DNA of 64,000 nucleotides, from the NCBI RefSeq assembly GCF_018987235.1, contig NZ_CP072197.1, positions 1,860,001-1,924,000 of the forward strand, in the 5' to 3' direction. The notes beneath the pieces were generated by a model that made no database searches, was not told where the DNA came from, and was given only the letters and a program-made list of their open reading frames with translations. The stretch's first letter is position 1. Every line of letters begins with the position of its first letter. Made by a program: the position numbers and the translations under genes. The stretch comes from Lactobacillus crispatus (lineage in GTDB: Bacteria > Bacillota > Bacilli > Lactobacillales > Lactobacillaceae). This document shows, piece by piece, positions 14,268 through 34,215 of this stretch.

Positions 14268-14340
14268 CTCCGGCTGTCAGACTCGAACTGACGACATCTT
14301 GATTAACAGTCAAGCGCTCTACCAACTGAGCTAAGCCGGA
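14268..14340 (-). tRNA. tRNA-Asn (GTT)
   Basis: The minus strand folds into a cloverleaf. The acceptor TCCGGCT pairs with AGCCGGA, the discriminator is G, the D-arm is GCTCAGTTGGTAGAGC, the anticodon stem is CTTGA/TCAAG with loop CTGTTAA (anticodon GTT), and the T-arm contains GTTCGAGTC. CCA is not encoded. It is the last gene of the rRNA operon. Confidence 0.95.
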
Positions 14341-14353
14341 ATATTAAAAAAGA

Positions 14354-14471
14354 GCACGGCAGCTTCCTTTCCTCGCAGGCAGTTGCCCACCAACTACTTT
14401 CGGCGTTAAGAAGCTTAACTTCTGTGTTCGGCATGGGAACAGGTGTATCCTTCTTGCTTTCGCCACCGTAC
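14354..14471 (-). rRNA. rrf: 5S ribosomal RNA
   Basis: About 118 nt carry the standard 5S landmarks, such as GGATACACCTGTTCCCATGC followed by GAACACAGAAGTTAAG. Complementary ends (GTACGGTGG with GCCGTGC) form helix I. It lies between 23S and tRNA-Asn. Ends are accurate to a few bases. Confidence 0.95.
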
Positions 14472-14542
14472 TCTTTTGAGCTTTTACACTCAAAACTAAA
14501 CATAATCCTCCTCGCAAAAAAACTTCCAGTTTGCTTCGCTTT

Positions 14543-19222
<4,680 letters not shown>

Positions 19223-29202: not shown

Positions 29203-30367
29203 CCCGGATTTAAAATTGAAGTGCAACACCAAGTGTTAAACAAAAAGGCCATGAAGACCTAAACTTGAAGTGACGAAAAATCAAGAAAGGAAGATCTTCA
29301 TGACCAATTCAAATTCTAGCATTTCTAAGCACTATCATCAATTAACCAGCGTACAACGTGGACAAATTCAAGCAATGCTGGATTCCGGCATAACTTCCCG
29401 TACTGTTATCGCTCAAGAAGTCGGCTGCCATAAGTCGACAATCAGTCGCGAAATCAAACGCGGAAGCGTCCTGCAAAGAGACAGCAGCTATTTATTGTAT
29501 GAGCACTATTACGCTGATACTGCACAGCTTTATTATGAGAAGCGTCGCAAAAACTGCTATCAGCGCAATCCATTGAAGCATTATGCTGTCTTTTTGAGAA
29601 TGCTCTCCAGACGCTTCAAAGCTAAATTTGATGCCACCAGCATCGATGAATTCGTTGGTGAATTCAAAAGGACTATGCCAGGCTACCCTTGTCCCAGCAC
29701 ACCAACTGTCTATCGCTATATTGATCAGGGCTTGCTGGACATAAGCAATATTGATCTGCCTATGAAGCTCAAAAGACGCAGGAACAAGCGTCATCACGGC
29801 CAGAGCGGTCATGCTTTGCACAAGAAGAATCTTGGCAATTCCATTGAACAGCGTCCTAAAGAGATTGAAGACAGAAAAACGCCGCTGCACTGGGAAGGAG
29901 ATCTGGTTAAAGGCGTCAGACGCAAGAATCAGCCTGCTTTAATGACTTTGACCGAAAGAACCACACGCTTTGAAGTAGTTATCAAGATTCCTGACTATCG
30001 GGCAAGCACATGCCAAAGGCTGCTTCAAAATGAGATTGACAGACATCCTGCCTGGTTTAAATCGATCACGTTTGACAATGGCTCTGAGTTTGCGGATATG
30101 ACCAAGATCAAAGGCTGCCAGATCTACTTCGCCCACCCATATTCTCCATGGGAAAGAGGCACCAATGAGAACTGCAATGGACTTCTGCGTCAATTCTTCC
30201 CTAAAGGCAAAAGCATGAAAGATAAGTCAGCTGCTTATGTTCAACAGGCAACTGATGCCATTAACCGCAAACATCGTCGAATCCTTCAATATCACACAGC
30301 AGAAGAACTCTTCAAGCAATATATTTCCTCATAGCCTAACTGTTGCACTTAATTTGACAATTCAGGA
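29203..30367 (+). mobile_element. IS30-family insertion sequence
   Basis: About 1165 bp between 12-bp direct repeats. Terminal regions share AAGTGCAACA in inverted orientation (left near 29230-29239, right TGTTGCACTT near 30343-30352) within imperfect inverted repeats of ~26 bp. It contains one intact transposase gene. Size and layout fit IS30. The direct repeat is longer than the 2-3 bp usually made by this family, so the exact ends need checking. Confidence 0.85.
29300..30334 (+). CDS. IS30-family transposase
   Basis: 344 aa. The N-terminal HTH region (YHQLTSVQRGQIQAMLDSG, SRTVIAQEVGCHKSTISREIKRG) is the classic IS30 DNA-binding part. The DDE catalytic core shows HWEGDLVKG (first D), TFDNGSEFAD (second D) and WERGTNENCNGLLRQFFPKG with the conserved E. 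I chose the ATG at 29300, with AAGGAAG upstream. An earlier GTG at 29270 would add ten residues. The gene looks intact. Confidence 0.95.
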   Translation: MTNSNSSISKHYHQLTSVQRGQIQAMLDSGITSRTVIAQEVGCHKSTISREIKRGSVLQRDSSYLLYEHYYADTAQLYYEKRRKNCYQRNPLKHYAVFLRMLSRRFKAKFDATSIDEFVGEFKRTMPGYPCPSTPTVYRYIDQGLLDISNIDLPMKLKRRRNKRHHGQSGHALHKKNLGNSIEQRPKEIEDRKTPLHWEGDLVKGVRRKNQPALMTLTERTTRFEVVIKIPDYRASTCQRLLQNEIDRHPAWFKSITFDNGSEFADMTKIKGCQIYFAHPYSPWERGTNENCNGLLRQFFPKGKSMKDKSAAYVQQATDAINRKHRRILQYHTAEELFKQYISS

Positions 30368-32493: not shown

Positions 32494-32529
32494 TAATTTT
32501 TCGATAAAAGAAACATACTAACCTAGTGT

Positions 32530-32573
32530 TGGATCATGAATCGACGGATTCACGATCTGGCACTTTTTATTTT
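32530..32573 (+). terminator. Terminator after aldehyde dehydrogenase
   Basis: GATCATGAATC pairs with GGATTCACGATC around a short loop, then CTGGCACTTTTTATTTT follows. Confidence 0.75.
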
Positions 32574-32587
32574 GTCTAAAATAGAAA

Positions 32588-32752
32588 GTGAAGATAAAGC
32601 AAATCAAGTCTTCAGCTTTTTAGACACTTGATGTCGTAAAAGAAACGGACTGCTTTACCACCTATTCTTAAGTCTCTTCGAAGTCTGTGGGCACTTAGAT
32701 GCCGTGTTTAGAAAATTAGAATTAATAGGTTGATAAAGAGGTTTATCTTCAC
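32588..32752 (+). ncRNA. Candidate bridge RNA of the IS110 element
   Basis: The 165-nt leader before the transposase closes with perfect 11-bp arms, GTGAAGATAAA (32588-32598) and TTTATCTTCAC (32742-32752). Inside are hairpins: ATCAAG...CTTGAT (about 32603-32632), GTAAA/TTTAC (32636-32640 with 32654-32658), and ACCTATT/AATAGGT (32660-32666 with 32724-32730) enclosing GGCA/TGCC (32690-32703). Position, size and multi-stem layout match the bridge RNAs known from IS110 left ends. Its expression and function are inferred. Confidence 0.6.
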
Positions 32753-32767
32753 AGCGGAGGTTATATT

Positions 32768-33994
32768 ATGGAATCACAAATTATTTTCGGTATTGATGTT
32801 AGCAGTAAATCTTCCACAGTTTGTGTGGTTAATGACCGGATCAAACAAGGCGAATCTTTTAGAATCTCTAATGATTCCTTTGGCTATCAAAAACTTTATG
32901 AGCAACTGAACCAATATTTGATAACTCCTTTAGTTGTTTTCGAAGCTACTGGTGTTTATTCTCTAAGCCTGCAAGCTTTCTTAGAGGATTATCATATTAA
33001 GTATTTGAAGCTTAATCCGCTTAAAGCGAAAAAGCTAATGGACAATAATTTACGCCATAATAAAACTGATAAGGTAGATGCTTATCGCCTGGCTTTAATT
33101 CAATTTAATGCCCCGCAAAAGCTGCGTGATCCACAGCCCAGAGAGTATCATGAACTTCAGAATGCCAGTCGCTATTATGAAGAACTTACTAGGAGTATAG
33201 TTACTACTAAAAATCAATTGCACCGCAACCTCCAATCCACTTTCCCACAAATTGAAGAAATACTGTCTCATCCATCTGGCAGAATTTATTGGGCGCTTGT
33301 TAGTCTTTTCCCACATGCTGGATATGTTCTAGAAAAGAATGAGACACAGGTAACTCAAATGCTTAATTCTATTTCTGGAATAGGACAACAAAGGGCACGG
33401 TACTTAACCACAAGATTATACGCTTTTGCTAGAGAAGCTTATCCTTATGATTCCAAAGATAGTATTATCGTTAGAGCTATTCAAAGGAACATTTCTAATT
33501 TATTTTCACTCCAGCAAGAACGCGACTATGTAATTAACTACATGGAAAAGCTGGCTAAAGCAGTAAACGCTCGTGCTTTATCCATCTATTTGAGTATCCC
33601 AGGGGTTGCTAGAATTACAGCAGTGAGATTAGTAGCAGAGCTCGGTGATCTAAGACGGTTTAGCACTTCAGCTCAAATTGATGCGTTTGTTGGCATTGAT
33701 CCAGGAAGGTACCAATCTGGTGAAAAAGACAGTTCTCTTGGCATTACCAAGCATGGCAATCATATTGCCAGAAAAATACTTTATCGAGTTATTACTCAAA
33801 TGGAGACGGTAAAGGCTACGCAGCCTTGCCATATAACTGATTATTATGACAAGAAAAAACGATCTTCAAATAGCCAAGGCTATAAGAAAATCGCCATTGC
33901 ATCAGTCCATAAACTGATACGCACAATGTTTGCTCTTATCAAACATGATCAATTATATGATTACAACATAGCCACCGAAAATAAAAGACTTTAG
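32768..33994 (+). CDS. IS110-family transposase/recombinase
   Basis: 408 aa. The N-terminal RuvC-like DEDD domain shows IIFGIDVSSKSSTVC (Asp), VVFEATGVYS (Glu) and NKTDKVDAYRLA (Asp pair). A central coiled-coil region spans about 120-260. The C-terminal Tnp20 domain has SIPGVARITAVRLVAELGD and FVGIDPGRYQSGEKDSSLGITKHGN with candidate serine nucleophiles. A GCGGAGG site precedes the ATG. The gene appears intact. Confidence 0.93.
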   Translation: MESQIIFGIDVSSKSSTVCVVNDRIKQGESFRISNDSFGYQKLYEQLNQYLITPLVVFEATGVYSLSLQAFLEDYHIKYLKLNPLKAKKLMDNNLRHNKTDKVDAYRLALIQFNAPQKLRDPQPREYHELQNASRYYEELTRSIVTTKNQLHRNLQSTFPQIEEILSHPSGRIYWALVSLFPHAGYVLEKNETQVTQMLNSISGIGQQRARYLTTRLYAFAREAYPYDSKDSIIVRAIQRNISNLFSLQQERDYVINYMEKLAKAVNARALSIYLSIPGVARITAVRLVAELGDLRRFSTSAQIDAFVGIDPGRYQSGEKDSSLGITKHGNHIARKILYRVITQMETVKATQPCHITDYYDKKKRSSNSQGYKKIAIASVHKLIRTMFALIKHDQLYDYNIATENKRL

Positions 33995-34177
33995 CTGAAA
34001 TCAAATAATCAACTTAAGTATAAGCAACCTATGGAAAAACTACAAGTATTCATAGGCTTATTTGTGGTACTTTCGCTTTTTCTTAAATTTAAACTCTTAT
34101 TTGCTTTAACCTTATTCGCATCATTAAAACAAGTAAATTTATTTTCTTAAATCATTGATAATACTTGACTTTGGGTA
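33995..34177. other. Right end of IS110 element and spacer
   Basis: It contains a hairpin with arms ATAAGCAACCTATG and CATAGGCTTAT (about 34020-34063), possibly a terminator or element end. There is no ORF of note. Confidence 0.45.
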
Positions 34178-34215
34178 GAAAATACGCTGGCAACTTAACC
34201 AGCGTATTTCTTTTA
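34178..34215 (-). terminator. Terminator of the zinc-ribbon membrane protein gene
   Basis: AAATACGCTGG pairs with CCAGCGTATTT around an 8-nt loop, with A/T runs on both sides. Confidence 0.8.

Follow-up and report, generated by a model that had tools for sequence, protein, structure and literature searches.

The gene for an IS110-family recombinase in Lactobacillus crispatus is preceded by a non-coding leader rich in complementary segments, which raises the question of whether this leader encodes a bridge RNA and, if so, which DNA such an RNA would specify and which of the known guide-RNA systems it resembles. We examined it within a window of 64,000 nucleotides (contig NZ_CP072197.1, positions 1,860,001 to 1,924,000); coordinates below are those of the window and all features lie on its forward strand. 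Judged from sequence comparisons, the leader very probably encodes a bridge/seek RNA, and as an explanation of the locus overall we hold with considerable confidence that it is the bispecific guide RNA of an IS110-superfamily DEDD recombinase.

The element and its recombinase

The recombinase gene (32768..33994) encodes a protein of 408 aa in which domain searching and alignment identified both PF01548 and PF02371. Residues D10, E59, D101, D104, and S317 were invariant in an alignment of 10 sequences, and the two domains, the DEDD residues and the conserved serine place the protein in the IS110 superfamily. Recombinase profile scores were 93 bits for ISCro4 and 86 bits for IS621 (both partial sequences) vs. 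64 for IS4321. The element's family splits off with 100% support in the recombinase tree, where branching among IS4321, IS621/ISCro4, ISEc45, ISAtu7, and the Enterococcus faecium element has support of just 23–44%. A hairpin (CCTATG/CATAGG) with a T-rich tail is apparent 3′ of the gene at 34028..34063; the idea that a host terminator serves as the recombinase's own was dropped, because the gene already has this downstream hairpin.

The whole element (32511..34182) was delimited by aligning its eight own-genome copies with their flanks and with element-free counterparts in sibling species, its exact ends being ambiguous inside the A-runs at 32511-32513 and 34179-34182. The same comparisons identified the left target half, TAAAAG (32505..32510), as host DNA. 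Five of the eight copies in the host genome (a 2.24-Mb single contig) are identical across the 1663 bp compared, the other three differ by two to three bases, and the leader is without any difference among the eight; this near-identity suggests recent movement. An L. crispatus plasmid carries, at a different site, a copy of 96% identity whose guides are unchanged and in which the donor-loop stem shows a paired change from GGCA/TGCC to GACA/TGTC.

Several further arrangements were observed. Another genome of the genus (G024:C44:6599-6782) has the window's insertion in common, with 81 nt at 100% identity including ~31 nt of host flank, and 98% identity across 130 nt of flank. In a miniature remnant (G036:C26:30457-30558), 57 nt from the left end are separated by just ~15 nt from 31 nt of the right end, and at the right junction of L021/L097 the element's last ~30 bp are tandemly repeated. 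In Cytobacillus gottheilii (L120, L122) two leader copies lie near each other in the same orientation, and the right flanks start GAGGCTGGGACATAAG. Rfam RF03014, Transposase-1 RNA, occurs close to another insertion of the element (L002:3296-3354). Within the window, an open reading frame at 29270-30334, 2 kb upstream of the element, presumably resembles an IS30-type transposase, and an rRNA operon plus tRNA occupies 14268-19217.

Fold of the leader

The initial annotation described two arms closing the leader, GTGAAGATAAA (A, 32588-32598) and TTTATCTTCAC (D, 32742-32752), and these are exact 11-nt complements 143 nt apart, the latter immediately before GGAGG at 32756-32760. Of 1000 dinucleotide-shuffled versions of the leader, 6 contained an inverted repeat ≥11 nt long enclosing a loop of ≥60 nt. 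The predicted folding energy of the stretch was −41.9 kcal/mol (z −2.5), with 4 of 200 shuffles equally good, and the modeled fold thus surpasses shuffles moderately. On a plain alignment of 29 leaders, a column-wise count for the outer stem gave 57% of cells paired vs. 41–57% in slid controls and hence no resolution; a per-sequence helix search was used instead. By this approach 27 of the 29 leaders, their sequences being quite different, have a helix linking the regions of the two outer arms that no more than 5 in 100 segment shuffles equaled, and helices A:B and B:C reached the same level in 14 and 15 of the 29, respectively.

Three inner hairpins had been proposed between the arms, and only the third is conserved among relatives: its GGCA/TGCC stem is paired in 108/116 cells and its ACCTATT/AATAGGT stem in 125/173. 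The first (ATCAAG/CTTGAT, 82/146 cells) and second (GTAAA/TTTAC, 69/145) are not conserved, and are outdone by the alternatives AGTC/GACT (75/112) and GACA/TGTC (86/110). These belong to a single domain that supplants both hairpins, a predicted target-binding domain (32595..32657) comprising P1 (TAAAGC/GCTTTA, 32595-32600/32652-32657), P2 (AGTC/GACT, 32607-32610/32648-32651), an internal loop and an apical stem (GACA/TGTC, 32623-32626/32632-32635). It is followed by a putative donor-binding domain (32660..32730) with P4 at 32660-32666/32724-32730 and an apical stem at 32690-32693/32700-32703, supported by conservation of the third hairpin. P1 and the outer stem would be mutually exclusive, because their 5′ strand is common to both. 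The feature is larger than the noted extent, 32588-32752, with a 40-nt hairpin and T-run (32525-32573) lying 5′ of it.

As RNAalifold applied to the plain alignment of 29 leaders returned the left-end hairpin alone (8 pairs), we counted pairs in the named structure. In total 75.8% of its cells were paired vs. 61.8 ± 1.0% in shuffled and at most 42.2% in slid controls, a count favored by the structure having been named from the window's own sequence. Two-sided changes occurred at 19 of its 25 pairs; P2 was merely 67% paired, and covariation in the donor domain was mostly clade-wise. A covariance model trained on 18 relatives, the window itself included, detected the RNA in 27 of the 62 sources to which it was applied (E ≤ 0.002), the 62 including element-free sites and truncated leaders. 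The model had no match in the records of IS4321, ISEc45, ISAtu7, ISEsa2, and the Streptomyces and E. faecium elements. Rfam, searched with the leader both at the gathering score and with E ≤ 5, gave no relevant match, which says little because that library offered no bridge-RNA family for comparison.

Probable target guides and insertion flanks

Comparison of the loops with the insertion flanks of other copies had been proposed in the initial annotation as a check on a bridge RNA, and this, the decisive test, was positive. Element ends were located in 58 entries and leaders in 56 (33 unique), from which 44 distinct insertions and 26 guide classes were tested. Entries dropped were L040, L124, and L114 (no mapped guide), L110 (right end missing), the outer L089 left end and L128 (no gene start), and L087 (left-end pattern unmet). 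Guides were taken from alignment columns, because regular expressions could not extract them from the window clade, among others.

Two segments of the target domain matched the flanks, 32612..32622 the right and 32636..32645 the left. Scored as the best of three registers with G-U pairs allowed, right flanks fitted their own guides at 7.9 of 10 positions vs. 6.43 ± 0.17 when shuffled, and left flanks at 5.42 of 8 vs. 3.67 ± 0.20; none of 5000 shuffles equaled either value, these shuffles being non-independent trials because copies have common ancestry. For the eight own copies the right match was 7–9 of 10 (other guides 5.8–6.8) and the left match 5–7 of 8 (other guides 2.8–4.2). Rows at or below control were L116 (4 of 10), L118 (5), and L131 (6) on the right and L116 (3 of 8), L122 (2), and L022 (4) on the left. 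An unbiased scan of all six-base RNA windows against both flanks and both strands yielded just two signals above the null of 200 shuffles: one for the top strand of the right flank at ~32612-32619 (z 7.4 against a null maximum of 3.2) and one for the bottom strand of the left flank at ~32636-32642 (z 7.0 against a null maximum of 3.4). The loop is thus complementary to both target halves, as expected of a bridge/seek RNA, with the top-strand match 5′ of the bottom-strand match, as in the IS1111 group.

These results bear on two other readings of the leader. It could be a mere structured 5′ UTR with a regulatory role in the translation or termination of the recombinase mRNA and no guide function. 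Its competing stems (A with B or D) lie beside the ribosome site and are accompanied by a terminator-like hairpin, both as in leader attenuators; the loop sequences, however, track the insertion flanks of relatives, which a pure regulator would have no reason to do, and we regard this reading as very unlikely. Alternatively, the RNA could be of the IS621 type, the left-target guide then being the 5′ one. Its position in the left end is that of the IS110 group, and the recombinase profile ranks ISCro4 and IS621 over IS4321, yet the pairings that this order requires stayed at noise level in the scan (z 2.4 and 3.2, with null maxima of 3.0 and 3.4), leaving it, in our estimation, slightly the less credible of these two very improbable readings.

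In Lactobacillus kitasatonis one element (L089:1733-3411) is inserted in another relative, which starts near L089:1526. The nested insertion hits the donor-loop part of the guide-RNA gene (..GGTTTAG / AAAATTAGATC..), a site that the inner element's own guides fit at 9 of 10 and 6 of 8 positions—apparently a case of one such element aimed at the RNA gene of another.

Probable donor guides and element ends

The second loop was compared with the ends of the element. Its 5′ donor guide, AGUCUGU (32682..32688), would pair with the left end, ACATACT, at 6 of 7 positions, and the 3′ donor guide, UAGAAAA (32709..32715), equals the right end, TAGAAAA. Across relatives the 5′ guide fitted the left end at 7 of 7 positions in 24/29 leaders, over three kinds of left-end sequence (CATACT, CATTCT, and CAGACT), and the 3′ side was identical to the right end, 7 of 7, in 16/28; locating donor guides by pattern or as the best window favors a match in these counts. 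The window element, likewise three close relatives, has one mismatch between 5′ guide and end. With this one exception the loop is complementary to the element's ends, as in bridge/seek RNAs, and one loop fitting the insertion flanks and another the element ends together support the bridge-RNA reading.

A candidate left subterminal inverted repeat (32518..32528) matches its partner at 34168-34178 in 6 of 11 positions in register. Over 19 distinct end pairs the in-register mean was 6.84 of 11 vs. 3.08 shuffled, a count to which the search pattern contributes by dictating the opening letters; restricted to positions 4-11 it was 4.05 of 8. The single distinct Enterococcus end pair reaches 10 of 11, and the longest exact run is 3 in the window vs. 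12 in IS4321. The ends of relatives thus appear to keep traces of subterminal inverted repeats.

Placement among guide-RNA systems

For placement we drew on parts of PMC11208160, PMC11187229, PMC11208158, and PMC9208149. In the sections used, the IS1111 elements tested have the top-strand match 5′ of the bottom-strand match and ISEc21 the reverse (PMC11187229), and the guide order of IS621 is the reverse of the IS1111 order (PMC11208160). The window's RNA shares its order with the seekRNAs of IS1111-group elements ISEc11, ISPa11, and ISKpn4, as described there (PMC11187229), and its family appears to keep traces of subterminal inverted repeats like those of that group, at 10 of 11 positions in the Enterococcus ends. 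By eye, GCCGTA..CTGG of IS4321 resembles the family's GTCGTA..CTGGC. In the RNA region of IS4321, downstream of the gene, AAAACGGAA is the complement of the right flank and lies 5′ of TATTTTC, which by eye fits the left side.

Unlike IS1111-group elements, the window element has its RNA in the left end, upstream of the gene, as in the IS110 group, rather than downstream (a rule with exceptions, e.g., ISMtsp17, according to the part of PMC11187229 used), a recombinase of about 400 aa rather than the 330–350 given in these sources, and decayed repeats. Left-end position, a target loop before the donor loop, two guides per loop and a predicted circle-junction promoter are shared with the IS621 bridge RNA and the ISEc21 seekRNA (PMC11208160; PMC11187229), whereas the guide order is reversed in both loops and a T-run lies 3′ of the first hairpin here. 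Recombinase length agrees with the IS110-proper subgroup (395–455 aa), whose guide order was not found stated in the parts of these papers drawn upon. We consider an IS1111 guide order within an upstream RNA well supported, and call the element a mosaic and a member of neither group, because it combines this order and the repeat traces with an upstream RNA and a long recombinase, and because the tree branching is poorly supported. The PMC11208160 figure of six diverse RNAs may already include one that lies upstream and has the IS1111 order.

Insertion at probable terminator edges

Six of the eight sites (L001, L002, L003, L004, L007, and L008) could be aligned with an element-free counterpart, the one for L003 being diverged at the junction. 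The empty site of L002 reads CGGTAAAAGAAAAAGCAAATT and that of L007, the tuf terminator, TTTAAAAGAAAAAAGATGCGC. The products, TAAAAGAAACATAC and GGGTAGAAAA-AAAGC, are consistent with exchange inside an A-run; by hand count the joint would have 4 A in most counterpart comparisons and 5 in two, the A-run making core and joint uncertain. In the mechanism we propose, the recombinase would use the guide RNA to bring the circular element and its target together, with strand exchange inside the common A-run, the core probably being AA. The element would be programmed to about TAAAAG-AA-AAAGC, which in this host is mostly the U-tract edge of the hairpin at the 3′ end of the right-hand gene.

Taking neighboring frames as the longest open frames rather than from annotation, the right-hand frame points toward the element in all eight own copies, its 3′ end 39–73 nt off in all copies but L006, in which it is open at the junction; left-hand frames are split 4 and 4 in orientation, that of L004 being open up to the junction. 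As the right frames face the element, most copies have their target next to the 3′ hairpin of the right-hand gene, on the side of the U-tract. In the window a predicted hairpin of −14.8 kcal/mol, mostly host DNA, spans the right junction (34180..34209) and is followed by a T-rich stretch. Right flanks fold at −9.9 kcal/mol or below in 7/8 own copies (L005, −4.8), and L004 has a strong hairpin ~25 nt deeper in the right flank. Family-wide, a strict terminator scan was positive at 9/45 sites vs. 17/608 controls; as it missed AT-rich stems, folding energy was used next, and 28/45 right flanks reached −10 kcal/mol or below vs. 125/446 control AAAA sites (P = 6.7e-6). A fold plus T-rich tail was present in 13 right flanks vs. 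38 control sites.

It is feasible that insertions at terminators reflect survival only, the guides fitting A-rich DNA anywhere and harmless 3′ ends being kept. The host genome has 12 unoccupied exact AAAAGAAAAAGC sites, of which six are covered by an open frame throughout the tested stretch and three are, by eye, compact palindromes, figures in line with survival. Seven of the 12 fold at −9.9 kcal/mol or below, which hardly separates them from the occupied sites and leaves no clear difference between the two; a claim that unoccupied sites are rarely palindromic and mostly coding was weakened by this folding and by the six open-frame sites. Against survival alone speak the uniform orientation toward the right-hand frame, the family-wide excess of folded right flanks, and the guide itself, which reaches into the terminator stem (AAAAAGC). 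We judge survival alone possible rather than probable; terminator-edge targeting by the window element is supported, with survival a likely co-cause. Group IIC introns, which prefer intrinsic terminators, are likewise mobile elements that settle at such sites, with unrelated machinery. A search of the text of open PMC papers on terminators with IS110/IS1111 or on read-through found nothing on such an arrangement.

The left-end hairpin and a predicted junction promoter

The hairpin 5′ of the leader domains (32525..32573) comprises an 18-bp stem with one mismatch, a tetraloop, and a T-run, terminator-like or the 5′ stem-loop of the RNA; immediately 3′ of the stem comes TTTTATTTT. Seven of its eight RNAalifold pairs have two-sided changes among the 29 leaders. 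Of 32 unique leaders, 30 have at least 5 T within the 8 nt past the stem (the remaining two were mis-parsed), against a background of 8% of all 8-mers in 33 leaders.

From the spacing of end pairs, a −10-like TAACCT (32519..32524) in the left end and a −35-like TTGACT (34165..34170) in the right end would together make up a promoter spanning the joint of the circle. Right ends have TTGACT or TTGACA (TTGAAT in one relative) and left ends TAA(G/C/T)(A/C)T, and given 4 A at the joint the spacing is 17 nt in 32/32 unique end pairs, its left-end part fixed by the search pattern and its right-end part free. The predicted start, ~7 nt past the −10 site, would fall inside the left arm of the hairpin. 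After a 7-nt truncation the gap between stem and T-run was at least 4 nt in 20/32 leaders and 1 nt in 9, and refolding occurred in 1/32 (figures covering 30 of the 32).

Somewhat less surely than for the guides, we suggest that the hairpin and its T-run might stop host-gene transcription entering the element, and that the junction promoter, TTGACT-17-TAACCT, might start the RNA inside the left arm, so that the hairpin would no longer stop RNA made from the circle. Read-through protection of IS10 and IS50 has a similar logic, in that a hairpin is complete only in transcripts entering from outside; there the ribosome site is masked, while here termination is proposed. A conditional terminator, limiting guide RNA and recombinase to the circle, together with a stem switch (A:B or A:D) between guide and mRNA is attractive, unproven, and in our assessment tentative, with chances distinctly below even. 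Slightly better placed, if still short of an even chance, is the alternative that the hairpin (32525-32564) is the guide RNA's 5′ stem-loop, as in IS621, and not a terminator: IS621-type RNAs start with one, its position is just 3′ of the predicted junction promoter, and the truncated stem lies 1 nt from the T-run in nine leaders. That alternative leaves unaccounted for the T enrichment after the stem, which includes Bacillus-type relatives with unrelated stem sequence, and a predicted start within the left arm.

Implications

The occurrence in one lineage of an IS110 position with IS1111 guide order and repeat traces bears on the movement of guide RNAs between element ends. With 26 natural guide sets and their sites, drawn from Lactobacillus, Streptococcus, Enterococcus, and Bacillus-type relatives, rules of targeting can be tested. 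Targeting of terminator edges would account for a high copy number with little harm to the host and, if the conditional terminator is true, the combination of terminator-aimed guides with the element's own terminators would make an insertion transcriptionally silent to both neighbors.
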